Source: an uncultured Bacillota bacterium
GTDB lineage: Bacteria > Bacillota_I > Bacilli_A > RF39 > UBA660
Assembly (NCBI GenBank): GCA_945867665.1
Contig: CAMBIR010000012.1
Coordinates: 1 to 38,695, forward strand
Reading direction: 5' to 3'
DNA: 38,695 nt
Shown piece after piece: positions 5,118-9,743 of this stretch (position 1 is the first letter of the stretch; each line of letters starts with the position of its first letter). The position numbers and the translations under genes are program-made. A model generated the notes under the pieces. The model was not told the DNA's origin and did no database searches. It saw nothing but the letters and a program-made list of their open reading frames with translations.

Positions 5118-6854
5118 ATGAAACAAAAATTAGAATATCAAAAATATTTAAACCAAAAAAAATTCTATGAAAAAAAAGTAAATAAGATAGCTAGTTTAAG
5201 AATGATAGCTTTTCTCATTATGATTTTTAGTTTTATCCTAAAGTATTACTATTATAAAGTATTTTGGGAAACCATTTTTATCTTATCTCTAGTTAGTTTT
5301 TTTATTCTAGTAATCATTCATGATAAGTATTTTAAAAAATATCACTATTATGCATCTTACTTAAATATTTTAGAAAACTACCTTCAAAGAGCAAGTGGAG
5401 AGTGGAAAAAATTTAAAGATACAGGAGAGGAATTTTTAAAAGAAGAAAATCATTACTTAAGAGATTTAGATGTCCTAGGACAAAATTCCTTATTTCAATA
5501 TTTATGTATTTGTAAAACTATCGGAGGCAAGAGAAGATTATTTCAAAAATTATCAAATGAGAATCTAGATACGCAAAAATTAGTTGCCACCCAACAGGCA
5601 GTAGAAGAATTATCGAAAAGTAAAGAATTTATCATTAATTATCAAATTGCCTTAGCCAAGTATCAGAATAAAGCAATTGATTTAAGTACCATCTTTTCGA
5701 CATATACTAAAGACCAAGCCCAAAATGTTCGGGATTATCTTATCTCGGCAATGACAACAATTCTCTTAATTACTTTCTTTTGTTTATCCCTTTTTCATTT
5801 TATTAGCGTAAAATACTTCTATGGCTTATTTCTTTTTAATTATCTTATTTCTTTTATGTATAGTTTAATCTATCATAATGATTTTGATAAAATGACCAAT
5901 CTTGTTAGAACTTATCATCAAATCCCTTATCTAGCAAATATTATCCTAAAAGAAAACTTCACCAGTAAAAAGTTACAAAAAATCAAAAAAGAAGTATTCA
6001 CTACTAGTGAAATGACCAAAAAAATCAATTTTTTAGATTCTCTAAATAGCATTAAAGATAATCTCTTGTTCAATTTTTTATTTAATGGACTTTTCTGCAT
6101 AAACCTAATTTCCCGTTCGTATTTTAACTTATTTTTAAAAAAGGATTTTCCAAAATTAAAATCAAGTATTCATGATATGGAAGAATTAGAGGCATTAATT
6201 AGTCTATCCACACTTGGTATCTTAAAAGAACATATATGTATGCCAACAAAATGGGAAAAGGTGAGTATTGAATTTAAAGAAATAAAACATCCTCTTTTAG
6301 AAGAAAATATTTGTGTTGCCAATGACTTTGAAAGTGATGCTGGCGTAAATATTATTACCGGATCTAACATGGGAGGGAAAACTTCATTCCTAAGAACGGT
6401 AGGCATTAACCTTATTCTAATGAATGCGGGAACCTTTACCTGTGCTACCTCTTTTTCTTCCAATTACTTCAAAATATTTACTTCTATGCGAATTAATGAT
6501 GACATTGAAAAAGGAATCTCAACCTTTTATGGAGAACTTTTAAGAATTAAAGAAGCACTTTCCTATTTAGAGAAGGGAAATATGATTGTTTTAATTGATG
6601 AAATATTTAAAGGAACCAATTATCAAGATCGCATTTATGGTGCGAAAAAAGTGATTCAAAGATTACAAAACAAACAAGTCATTACCCTTCTAACTACGCA
6701 TGATTTTGAACTTTGCGATGAAAAAAATATTAAAAACTACCATGTTAAAGAATATTATGAAGGAGATAAAATTCAATTTGATTATAAAATAAGACCAGGA
6801 AAATGTAGAAGCACCAATGCTAAGTACTTAATGGAAAAATTAAATATTATTTAA
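5118..6854 (+). CDS. Membrane-bound MutS-family ATPase
   Basis: This 578-residue protein has the C-terminal ATPase core of MutS proteins: Walker A GSNMGGKTSFLRT near residue 415, the following GTFTCA and RINDDIEKGISTF stretches, Walker B IVLIDEIFKGTN around 489-500, and the TTHDFELC switch near 535. Unlike true MutS it has no mismatch-recognition domain. It has two hydrophobic hairpins, about residues 30-75 and 212-252, so it is membrane-associated. Similar membrane MutS-like ATPases are widespread in Firmicutes but poorly understood. Ribosome site AAAGGAG; tightly linked behind the exporter. A role in mismatch repair is unlikely. Confidence 0.85.
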   Translation: MKQKLEYQKYLNQKKFYEKKVNKIASLRMIAFLIMIFSFILKYYYYKVFWETIFILSLVSFFILVIIHDKYFKKYHYYASYLNILENYLQRASGEWKKFKDTGEEFLKEENHYLRDLDVLGQNSLFQYLCICKTIGGKRRLFQKLSNENLDTQKLVATQQAVEELSKSKEFIINYQIALAKYQNKAIDLSTIFSTYTKDQAQNVRDYLISAMTTILLITFFCLSLFHFISVKYFYGLFLFNYLISFMYSLIYHNDFDKMTNLVRTYHQIPYLANIILKENFTSKKLQKIKKEVFTTSEMTKKINFLDSLNSIKDNLLFNFLFNGLFCINLISRSYFNLFLKKDFPKLKSSIHDMEELEALISLSTLGILKEHICMPTKWEKVSIEFKEIKHPLLEENICVANDFESDAGVNIITGSNMGGKTSFLRTVGINLILMNAGTFTCATSFSSNYFKIFTSMRINDDIEKGISTFYGELLRIKEALSYLEKGNMIVLIDEIFKGTNYQDRIYGAKKVIQRLQNKQVITLLTTHDFELCDEKNIKNYHVKEYYEGDKIQFDYKIRPGKCRSTNAKYLMEKLNII

Positions 6855-6881: not shown

Positions 6882-7562
6882 ATGAGGAAAAAAATATTAT
6901 TTGTAGTAATAATTTTATTAGTAGTAAATCCAAAATTTGTTTATGCCGGACGGGGATGTTGTTCCCATCATGGAGGTCAAAATTATTGTGGAAGTGATGG
7001 GTATTGGTATTGTAATGATGGCTCTAAAAGTCCAACTTGTAGATGTAGTGGAGGAAGTTCTAGTAACTCTAATAATTCTTTTAGTTATCAAAAAAAAGAA
7101 ATATATGGATGTACAGACAAAAATGCCTATAATTATAATCCCTCAGCCACCACAAATGATGGAAGTTGTATTCAAAAAATTTATGGATGTACCAATAAAG
7201 AAGCATTTAATTATAACGAAAAAGCAAATGTTGACAATCATTCTTGTATAGACAAAGTCTATGGTTGTATAGATATTAGTGCCATAAATTATAATAAACA
7301 GGCTAACACTAAAGATGGCAGTTGCTTATATCAAGAAAAAAGAACAGAGAAGAAAAAGATAAAATACAAAACCAAGAAAAAGTATAGTTTCTTTAGAAAA
7401 GAAGGAAAAGTAATTCAAAAAGGAAAGAATGGAAAAAAAGAAATCACTTACCAAATTACAAGAAATGAAAGCAAAGAAGTAGTTGAAAAAAAGAAATTAA
7501 GTGAAAAAATTCTAGTAAAACCAACGCCTAAGATTGTATCAACCAAAAGCAGGAAAAAATAG
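6882..7562 (+). CDS. Secreted protein with three YGC..NYN..DGSC repeats and a C-terminal G5-like domain
   Basis: This 226-residue protein has an N-terminal signal peptide (hydrophobic to about residue 22, VYAG). A Cys/His/Gly-rich stretch (GRGCCSHHGG, WYCNDGS) and a Ser/Asn linker follow. Three consecutive units of about 22-25 residues then occur between residues 75 and 150, each YGC(T/I)-x-A-NYN-x-A-x-D-SC. This motif is better known from secreted proteins of Bacteroidetes and marine bacteria. The C-terminal part (about 155-220) resembles a G5 domain: IKYKTKKK, then GKVIQKGKNGKKEITY, then ESKEVVEKKKLSEK. G5 domains occur in cell-wall-binding proteins. Expected to be exported; the repeat Cys may form disulfides. 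Ribosome site is weak (GAGG). Confidence 0.75.
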   Translation: MRKKILFVVIILLVVNPKFVYAGRGCCSHHGGQNYCGSDGYWYCNDGSKSPTCRCSGGSSSNSNNSFSYQKKEIYGCTDKNAYNYNPSATTNDGSCIQKIYGCTNKEAFNYNEKANVDNHSCIDKVYGCIDISAINYNKQANTKDGSCLYQEKRTEKKKIKYKTKKKYSFFRKEGKVIQKGKNGKKEITYQITRNESKEVVEKKKLSEKILVKPTPKIVSTKSRKK

Positions 7563-7585
7563 CACCCGTATGATGCTATCTTTTT
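7559..7585 (+). terminator. Terminator of the repeat-protein gene
   Basis: ATAGCA (7559-7564) and TGCTAT (7574-7579), then C and TTTTT. The left arm overlaps the stop codon. Confidence 0.75.
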
Positions 7586-7684
7586 AATTAATCTAGATCT
7601 CTATCAGTATTTTCATAGTATTAAAATAAGATATTCTTTTTTTAATATTTATAGTATAATAAAAATACTTAAGGAGGAACTTAC

Positions 7685-8962
7685 GTGAAAGAGAAGTATT
7701 ATGAATTTACAACAACATTTGCGATGGGAATCATTTTCTTATTTGTAGGAATGATTTTAGCAATTGGAAAGGATGGACTTTACCAAAGCATTATCTCTAC
7801 CATTATCTTTCTTTTGTGGGGAAATGCTTTTGTCCAACTAGTTCGCCTTTATTTCAGACACCAAAGTAAAGAAAAAAAGAAAAAAGCCTTAATTTCTTGC
7901 TTATTCCATCTCATTCTCTGTCTCTTTTTTGCACTTCTTCCTGATTTTATTTTAGGTCTAGCTCCTATTCTTTTTTCTCTCTATTTAACTATTCTAGGAA
8001 TAAGTCAGTATATCATGGGGTATTTAGAAATTAAAACCAAAGAAAATTTTGGCGTTCGCTACTTCTTATTAGGTTGTATCTACTTAGCAATCGCGATTCC
8101 CATTATCTTATCTCCTTTAGGAAAACTAGATAATTTTCTAATCTGCTTAGTTATATATGCCATATTCTTAGGTCTATCCTTCATCTGGGATGCCTTAATT
8201 CAAATAATTCCAATAAACACCAAAAATAAATTTAAAAGAAAAATAAAAATAACGCTTCCTAAAATCATAGAAGCCATTATTCCCTATAGAGTTATGATAG
8301 ATATTAATAGAAATCTCGAAGTAAAAGAACAAAGCTATTCCTACCATAATCCAAATGATAAAACCGTAAATCTAAATATCTTAATTCATACCTCTAATCG
8401 AGGATTTAATCGAATGGGGCATATTGATATTTACTTTGACAATAAAGTAATCTCTTACGGTTGCTACGACGAAGGATCTAGATATGTTGGAGAATTATTC
8501 GGAGATGGTGTCTTATTTCTTGCTAAAAGTAAAAAAGAATACATTAACTTCTGCATTGATAATAGCAAAAAAACCATCTTTGATTTTGGTATTCATCTAA
8601 CAGATACAGAAAAGAAAAAAGTAGCGTTAAGAATAGAAGAACTATTAAAAAATACTTACCCTTGGAATCATAAAACTGATAAAAACTATCGTAATGGAAA
8701 AAGTTATGCCGCTAAACTCTATAAAAGAACTTCCGCTAAATTCTATAAATTTAAATCGGGAAAATATAAAACTTATTATGTTTTAGGTACCAATTGCTGT
8801 TTCTTAGCGGACGATATTATTGGAAAAAGTGGCATGGATATCTTATCCATTAATGGACTAATCACACCAGGAACCTATTATGATTATTTAAATAGAAAAT
8901 TAAAAGGAAAAAATAGTAATATTATTTATAAAGAAATTTATAACAAAGATAGAAGAGCGTGA
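7685..8962 (+). CDS. Multi-helix membrane domain (HdeD-like) fused to a permuted papain-like (NlpC/P60 superfamily) domain
   Basis: GTG start at 7685 after AAGGAGGAA; TATAAT at 7655-7660. The first ~190 of 425 residues form about six to seven helices in pairs resembling HdeD/DUF308 proteins. The C-terminal ~220 residues are soluble. They contain MGHIDIYFDNKVISYG, with His near residue 246, and TNCCFLADDI with Cys near 371-372. A His motif before a Cys motif is the order of circularly permuted NlpC/P60 (LRAT/YiiX-like) hydrolases, which act on amide or ester bonds of peptides or lipids. The membrane anchor suggests a lipid or envelope substrate. Domain calls rest on motif recognition only, and no enzymatic activity is proven. 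The methyltransferase gene follows after 4 bases. Confidence 0.6.
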   Translation: MKEKYYEFTTTFAMGIIFLFVGMILAIGKDGLYQSIISTIIFLLWGNAFVQLVRLYFRHQSKEKKKKALISCLFHLILCLFFALLPDFILGLAPILFSLYLTILGISQYIMGYLEIKTKENFGVRYFLLGCIYLAIAIPIILSPLGKLDNFLICLVIYAIFLGLSFIWDALIQIIPINTKNKFKRKIKITLPKIIEAIIPYRVMIDINRNLEVKEQSYSYHNPNDKTVNLNILIHTSNRGFNRMGHIDIYFDNKVISYGCYDEGSRYVGELFGDGVLFLAKSKKEYINFCIDNSKKTIFDFGIHLTDTEKKKVALRIEELLKNTYPWNHKTDKNYRNGKSYAAKLYKRTSAKFYKFKSGKYKTYYVLGTNCCFLADDIIGKSGMDILSINGLITPGTYYDYLNRKLKGKNSNIIYKEIYNKDRRA

Positions 8963-8966
8963 TCAA

Positions 8967-9743
8967 ATGACAAATCATACCAAATTATTAGAAAATTACT
9001 ACAATAAATTTAATGAAGATAAAAGACTAAATTCAAGAAGAGGTCAAGTAGAATTTACAACAAATTTAAAATATATTGAAAAATATATTCCCTTAGGGGC
9101 TAAAATTTTAGATGTCGGAGCCGGCACTGGAAAATATAGCTTATACCTAGATAAATTAGGCTACGATGTAGAAGCAGTAGAATTAGTAAAACAGAATCTA
9201 AATGTCATCAAAAAGAAAAAACCAACCCTAAAAAGTTATTTAGGAAATGCCCTAGATTTATCATTTTTAAAAGAAAATACTTATGATGCTATTCTCCTTT
9301 TTGGTCCAATCTATCATCTAAAAAAAAGAAGTGAACAATTAAAAGCAATTGAAGAAGCAAAAAGATTATTAAAGCCAAATGGCCTTCTCTTTATTTCTTA
9401 TTGCATGAATGAATATGCCATCATCACCCATGGCTTTAAGGATGGAAACATTTTAACATCTATTGCTTCTGGAAAAGTAGACGAGAATTTTCATATTTTA
9501 GAAAAAGGAAATGAACTATATGATTATGTTCGATTAGAAGATATTAATTTCATCCAAGAAAAATCTAATTTAAAACGTCTAAAACTAGTCTCCTCCGATG
9601 GAGCAAGCAGCTATATCAAAGATACCTTAAATAAAATGGACCAAAGCACTTTTGAAGTATTTTTAAACTATCACTTAAAAACTTGTGAAAGACAAGAACT
9701 CTTAGGAGCATCTACCCATATTTTAGATATTTTAAAAAAATAG
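8967..9743 (+). CDS. Class I SAM-dependent methyltransferase
   Basis: This 258-residue protein has the Rossmann methyltransferase pattern: motif I ILDVGAGTGKYSLYL near residue 47, an acidic end of strand 2 (VEAVELV), motif IV region YDAILLFGPIYHL near 110, and RLLKPNGLLFISY near 135. The length and lack of a target-recognition domain suit a small-molecule or protein methyltransferase of the Methyltransf_11/25 type; the substrate cannot be inferred. The start lies 4 bases after the previous stop, so it is probably cotranscribed and coupled with the papain-like membrane protein. Confidence 0.9.
   Translation: MTNHTKLLENYYNKFNEDKRLNSRRGQVEFTTNLKYIEKYIPLGAKILDVGAGTGKYSLYLDKLGYDVEAVELVKQNLNVIKKKKPTLKSYLGNALDLSFLKENTYDAILLFGPIYHLKKRSEQLKAIEEAKRLLKPNGLLFISYCMNEYAIITHGFKDGNILTSIASGKVDENFHILEKGNELYDYVRLEDINFIQEKSNLKRLKLVSSDGASSYIKDTLNKMDQSTFEVFLNYHLKTCERQELLGASTHILDILKK

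Follow-up and report, generated by a model that had tools for sequence, protein, structure and literature searches.

The gene at positions 7685-8962 on the plus strand of the window, i.e., the whole analysed stretch of 38,695 nucleotides from an uncultured Bacillota bacterium, encodes a protein in which a DUF308/HdeD-like membrane half is fused to a C-terminal domain with an invariant histidine and an invariant cysteine. The C-terminal domain showed weak but consistent kinship, in sequence and in predicted fold, to permuted papain-like families. The fusion represents a new architecture within a known superfamily and is common to many related bacteria. It is best read as a thiol acyl-transferase or acyl-hydrolase of the permuted NlpC/P60 type on an HdeD-like scaffold facing the inner leaflet. 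By analogy with related enzymes, its probable targets would be fatty-acyl groups on the inner side of the cell membrane.

The gene and its membrane half

The gene is real. It starts with GTG, has an open frame of 425 aa and recurs in relatives, and inspection of the sequence revealed a perfect Shine-Dalgarno signal, AAGGAGG, on the plus strand at 7671-7677, 7 bases ahead of the start. A hairpin with T-rich flanks (7554-7584, reported on the minus strand) was found between this gene and the upstream gene at 6882-7562, which encodes a G5-domain protein with a signal-like N-terminus and repeated 'GCTD..AxNYNxxA' motifs. Further upstream, at 5118-6854, lies a gene for a MutS domain V ATPase with hydrophobic segments at its N-terminus; L031, L102 and L104, which are near relatives, likewise have it upstream.

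The membrane half comprises residues 1-174 (7685-8206, plus strand), with six hydrophobic segments filling residues 8-172 and both termini predicted inside. The initial annotation had called this half HdeD-like, and the profile searches bore this out: DUF308 (PF03729) was matched by all 49 aligned relatives at E<=0.1 (best 2.4e-16), and the NCBIfam HdeD family (NF007577) by 15 of the 49 (best 1.9e-9). One of 50 relatives, L018, had been left out of this alignment for a broken frame. The window protein itself matched DUF308 with an E-value of 0.018, below the Pfam cut-off. HdeD proper is not known to carry a C-terminal enzyme domain.

Six spans with positive-inside loops were predicted for all 130 full-length relatives. 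The mean number of Lys and Arg was 13.8 in the predicted inner loops versus 2.7 in the outer ones, and the inner loops had the higher number in 130/130, with or without the last loop counted. The loop charges thus predict a topology with the N-terminus inside, six spans and the C-terminus inside, which would place the catalytic domain in the cytoplasm. The third span was marginal, with 42% of the relatives above KD19 1.6. The membrane half is followed by a basic linker and a short helix (residues 175-212; 8207-8320, plus strand) with conserved Pro192 and Pro200. The short helix is arguable as a seventh span and is one of the weak points of the predicted topology; in most relatives residues 175-212 are too polar for this. 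A seventh span at residues 186-212, by which the domain would end up outside, was considered unlikely, as the median KD19 was 1.38 and 18% of the relatives exceeded 1.6, versus 42-100% for the six other spans. The segment past residue 211 is acidic. In the full-length structure model residues 2-57 were drawn as a single helix, and the membrane half of this model is therefore not trustworthy in detail. Comparison of the full-length model with PDB retrieved long-helix look-alikes only, which were of no use.

Conserved residues, fold and kinship of the C-terminal domain

The C-terminal catalytic-type domain (residues 213-425; 8321-8959, plus strand) carries its putative active-site residues in the order His then Cys. 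The motifs GHIDIYF (His246) and TNCC (Cys371-372) sit where the initial annotation had placed them. Residues were counted at 22 positions in 130 non-redundant full-length relatives, selected from 187 profile matches by leaving out members shorter than 380 aa and near-duplicates. His246, the putative catalytic base (codon 8420-8422, plus strand), and Cys371, the putative nucleophile, were found in 130/130, which excludes the lack of conservation named at the outset as a refutation of the papain-like reading. Gly245, Pro200, Gly275, Gly391, Pro395 and Gly396 were likewise invariant. Asn370, which precedes the nucleophile in an NC motif (codons 8792-8797, plus strand), was conserved in 127 relatives, and Tyr398 in 128, Ser257 in 124 (codon 8453-8455, plus strand), His235 in 121 (codon 8387-8389, plus strand) and Tyr261 in 119. 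Of the two cysteines in the TNCC motif only the first stood, since Cys372 occurred in 29/130 and was Val in 69/130. An invariant His/Cys dyad in this order is the signature of the permuted NlpC/P60 (papain-like) enzymes, whose active site also contains a third polar residue and an extra conserved Tyr, according to the available part of PMC3142127. Ser257 is a candidate for the third polar residue here.

In the alignment of 113 domain sequences (of 114; L100, at a contig edge, was left out) the mean column identity was 40% and eight columns were invariant. Invariance of His246 and Cys371 at only 40% mean identity, together with the finding that 52 of 291 genomes in the window's own family carry the gene, amounts to more than chance. 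It also bears on the idea that the protein has retained the fold as a non-catalytic sensor or lipid-binding protein. No activity is known for the family, and HdeD-type halves are not known to be enzymes, as this idea would have it; His and Cys being among only eight invariant columns speaks against it, and we regard it as very improbable.

The structure model of the domain had a pLDDT of 84.7 and a pTM of 0.85. It showed an N-terminal beta subdomain with the His and a C-terminal helical subdomain with the Cys at a helix start, with His246 predicted to begin a strand and Cys371 to begin a helix. A Cys at the start of a helix and a His on a strand is also the layout of permuted NlpC/P60 enzymes, as generally known and in part described in PMC3142127. 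Foldseek returned nothing at E<=0.001 from PDB, where the best match by VIA had a Z of 4.7 and an rmsd of 5.7 over 137, and nothing at E<=0.001 from BFVD. The best BFVD matches were a viral PPPDE protein (E 1.8e-3, probability 0.99), a 'cysteine peptidase' (E 4.8e-3, probability 0.99) and a phage protein (E 1.9e-2, probability 0.96), followed by a viral LRAT (E 0.18) and parechovirus polyproteins. The structure prediction suggested in the initial annotation thus gave no indication of an unrelated fold, and no significant PDB match either.

The PPPDE protein and the 'cysteine peptidase' among the best fold matches raise the alternative of a membrane-tethered, PPPDE-like cysteine peptidase or deacylase acting on protein, e.g., taking an acyl or a peptide off a membrane protein on the cytoplasmic side. 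Relatives of the PPPDE type are peptidases rather than lipid enzymes. We consider this alternative unlikely, as a fold match reveals no substrate and the nearest sequence family is an acyltransferase.

This closest named family is Lnb_N (PF13387, DUF4105; Bacteroides lipoprotein N-acyltransferase), matched by 9/113 relatives at E<=0.1, mostly weakly (best E 2.8e-5). A single one of the 113, L098, passed the Pfam gathering cut-off (24.2 versus 22.2 bits). When 245 genomes of the phylum were searched with Lnb_N, weak matches were found in six, and the top two were members of the present DUF308-fusion family. The window protein alone had no Pfam match to Lnb_N, LRAT, Peptidase_C92 or any enzyme family. 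Lnb/DUF4105 proteins resemble the present family in membrane-associated acyl chemistry, which is putative here, and, in the part of PMC12994826 available, in the His-then-Cys permuted order reported for the DUF4105 clade. They differ in that the catalytic domain of Lnb is periplasmic, whereas here it follows six spans and is predicted cytoplasmic in 130/130, and the present host is a monoderm Bacillota.

LRAT (PF04970) was matched by 1/50 relatives (E 0.064), and hhalign brought the NC motifs of both families together over 19 columns at a non-significant P of 0.12. LRAT/PLAAT (HRASLS) proteins, with an H-box followed by an NC-box, share the proposed thiol acyl-enzyme logic and a small membrane-associated fold; they differ by another membrane anchor and by having no significant sequence match to the present family. 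The YaeF/YiiX-like Peptidase_C92 family (PF05708), including S. aureus LnsA, likewise consists of permuted bacterial NlpC/P60 proteins with a lipid pocket. It had no match in the window's genome at E<=0.001 and was absent among the best 25 of the 41 Pfam families matched by relatives. Alignment to in-phylum Peptidase_C92 by hhalign gave a score of 30.5 (P 0.0016), higher than the best of 18 unrelated control alignments (24.4), at a probability of only 16%. The GH motifs were aligned; the overlap stopped before Cys371 and left the Cys column unaligned. A stronger C92 subset scored 21.9, under the best control. Members of Peptidase_C92 are soluble, secreted or lipoprotein forms, as known in general and from the literature in part, in contrast to the six-span fusion found here.

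Several other candidates were dismissed as chance, i.e., TcdB_N (PF12918; E 0.04-0.06 in the window protein and 5/113 relatives, below cut-off), PolB_N (11/113 relatives, best 0.0086), a HexPS-like match and two PDB sequence matches obtained with the 113-sequence domain alignment (A3) at E<=10. A PDB sequence search with another alignment of relatives (A2) gave nothing at E<=1. PHROGs gave weak scattered matches only, almost all of them to families without an assigned function, and PADLOC gave no match in three proteins. Taken together, the invariant His and Cys, the Lnb_N matches, the strand and helix positions in the model and the viral PPPDE match, each weak alone, agree with the original papain-like reading and make a permuted papain-like fold highly probable.

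Distribution and gene neighbourhood

By whole-genome protein search the gene was present in the 52 genomes of the window's own family given above, and across the phylum a C-terminal domain profile picked it up in 32 of 392 genomes. Among the GTDB contigs, 257 stretches fitted the search patterns; 225 of these encode a relative, and the best 80 were kept. Named carriers included Romboutsia lituseburensis DSM 797, Thomasclavelia cocleata DSM 1551, Candidatus Soleaferrea massiliensis and Streptococcus mitis SK608, and the remaining carriers were mostly uncultured Bacilli and Clostridia. The architecture thus occurs widely in Bacillota, though with a patchy distribution. When the C-terminal domain served as the sole query, nearly all of the 35 matches listed for the phylum were full-length open frames of at least 408 aa, meaning that the domain practically always stands behind the membrane half. 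The clear exceptions among these 35 were frames of 62 aa (G440), 103 aa (G406, weak) and 345 aa (G648, close to the start of a contig); a second match in G440 was cut by the contig end. The survey of the fusion and its methyltransferase neighbour proposed in the initial annotation confirmed that the fusion recurs. In a tree of 55 domain sequences the window protein grouped with L101 and L102 (support 100/93 and 100/99), while the deep branches were weak.

Plasmid records contained one copy, annotated as 'DUF308 domain-containing protein', on a 285-kb Monoglobus 'plasmid' (L187, NZ_OY725741.1). In this record the family gene stands next to rnc and nrdR, and the record may be a misfiled piece of chromosome. 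Phage records contained one copy as well, in an unverified and unannotated 'Bacteriophage sp.' record (L188, MT835480.1), for which either a doubtful phage origin or a carried gene may be considered. A Viral_contigs scan with the window protein gave 19 stretches, none of which was confirmed. Broken copies in two frames each were seen in Streptococcus mitis SK608 and a Bacilli MAG (L180, 5426-6034 and 5941-6732; L155, 800-1333 and 1346-2068), which would fit either an accessory gene or errors in sequencing. In L007 (699-2864; contig shared with L107) the family protein extends in one 721-aa frame, and the extension resembles by eye an RluA-type pseudouridine synthase, as would result if two genes had fused or a stop codon had been lost.

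Neighbours were surveyed at 132 loci distinct by C-terminus, with up to five genes per side; some loci had flanks of only 1.5 kb or met a contig end, so that the neighbour counts are lower bounds. In the window an ORF for a class I SAM methyltransferase (8967-9743, plus strand) begins 4 bases past the stop codon of the fusion gene, and the initial annotation had taken the two genes as coupled in a two-step modification of a membrane substrate. Besides the short gap and the common strand, this idea has in its favour that in the closest relative, L101 (81% identical), too, a methyltransferase gene directly follows in the same orientation. An adjacent same-strand methyltransferase was found at these two of the 132 loci only, and the methyltransferase cluster occurred within five genes at three loci. 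The third, L058, held the only further copy found among the neighbours by phmmer, two genes off and on the opposite strand. No methyltransferase stood beside L102, L031/L103 or L104, the last with only about 0.8 kb of contig downstream; L102 and L031 have other genes in its place. The methyltransferase is therefore no part of the conserved system; as a general rule the coupling is largely refuted, and a two-step modification with the adjacent methyltransferase must be regarded as extremely improbable. The commonest neighbour cluster was present at 14/132 loci, so the gene context yields no function. A conserved lipid-related neighbour was not found among the 132 loci, and the substrate accordingly is proposed by analogy.

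Proposed function and its meaning

Permuted NlpC/P60 enzymes have hydrophobic pockets and, frequently, membrane anchors (PMC3142127, in the part available). In the available portions of the literature, roles on acyl groups or in N-acylation are described for Lnb, LnsA and Tox-Act1 (PMC12994826, PMC7387801). More specifically, LRAT/HRASLS proteins act on phospholipid acyls, Tox-Act1 is a phospholipase, Lnb is a lipoprotein N-acyltransferase and LnsA acts with LnsB in lipoprotein N-acylation (PMC12994826, PMC7387801, PMC12345273). Since the permuted NlpC/P60 enzymes of known activity act on acyls, an acyl-thioester on Cys371 is most likely here. The six DUF308/HdeD-type helices would hold the permuted NlpC/P60-like domain at the cytoplasmic membrane face, where Cys371, activated by His246, would attack an acyl bond, most likely a fatty-acyl ester, of a membrane lipid. 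The acyl-thioester would then be handed to water, as by a phospholipase, or to an acceptor, as by a transacylase, in the manner of LRAT/PLAAT and Lnb. We infer catalysis by the window protein and, by analogy, a lipid acyl substrate, and likewise the direction of acyl transfer. An integral-membrane thiol enzyme with such Cys371/His246 chemistry on membrane lipid at the cytoplasmic face has, in our judgement, an even chance of being the correct description.

A different role would be that of an Lnb counterpart in a monoderm, as a lipoprotein N-acyltransferase acylating the N-terminal Cys on the outer face. Lnb_N is indeed the best-named match, DUF4105 is reported as Lnb with one branch enriched in Firmicutes (PMC12994826, as far as available), and the monoderm S. 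aureus possesses a permuted NlpC/P60 enzyme, LnsA (PMC7387801, as far as available). Lgt, and hence lipoproteins, was near universal in the family (94/98 genomes). However, the domain is predicted inside, whereas lipoprotein N-termini are outside, and this predicted side argues against a plain Lnb role. Moreover, the Pfam name places Lnb_N at the N-terminus and in the periplasm, whereas the present domain is C-terminal behind six spans, and the gene is patchy in the family (52/291 genomes). The window's own genome (G000, 90% complete) had two CPBP matches and no match to PlsY or to Lgt, in an Lgt search that missed the B. subtilis control too; both genes are probably missing from the assembly, and the CPBP, PlsY and Lgt results were given no weight. 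All considered, an Lnb counterpart is distinctly unlikely. Returning to acyl chemistry at the cytoplasmic face, we tentatively suggest, as a possibility of less than even chance, that the family is a distinct class of bacterial integral-membrane PLAAT-like transacylases on an HdeD scaffold, serving in cytoplasmic-leaflet phospholipid remodelling or partner acylation, which would then act on the membrane side opposite to Lnb, LnsA and Lnt.

In a search by title and abstract of mainly freely readable literature, no published description of a DUF308/HdeD fusion with an NlpC/P60-type domain was found, and the fusion appears undescribed. The Firmicutes-enriched DUF4105 branch, as presented in the available part of PMC12994826, may be this fusion family. 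With the His and Cys invariant and the gene present in Romboutsia lituseburensis DSM 797 and Thomasclavelia cocleata DSM 1551, lipidomics of a Cys mutant is a direct approach. If the protein acts on acyl groups, the DUF308/HdeD membrane module would be tied to a testable chemistry, and gut Bacillota would gain a cytoplasm-facing enzyme of lipid remodelling or acyl transfer for which we found no described counterpart.
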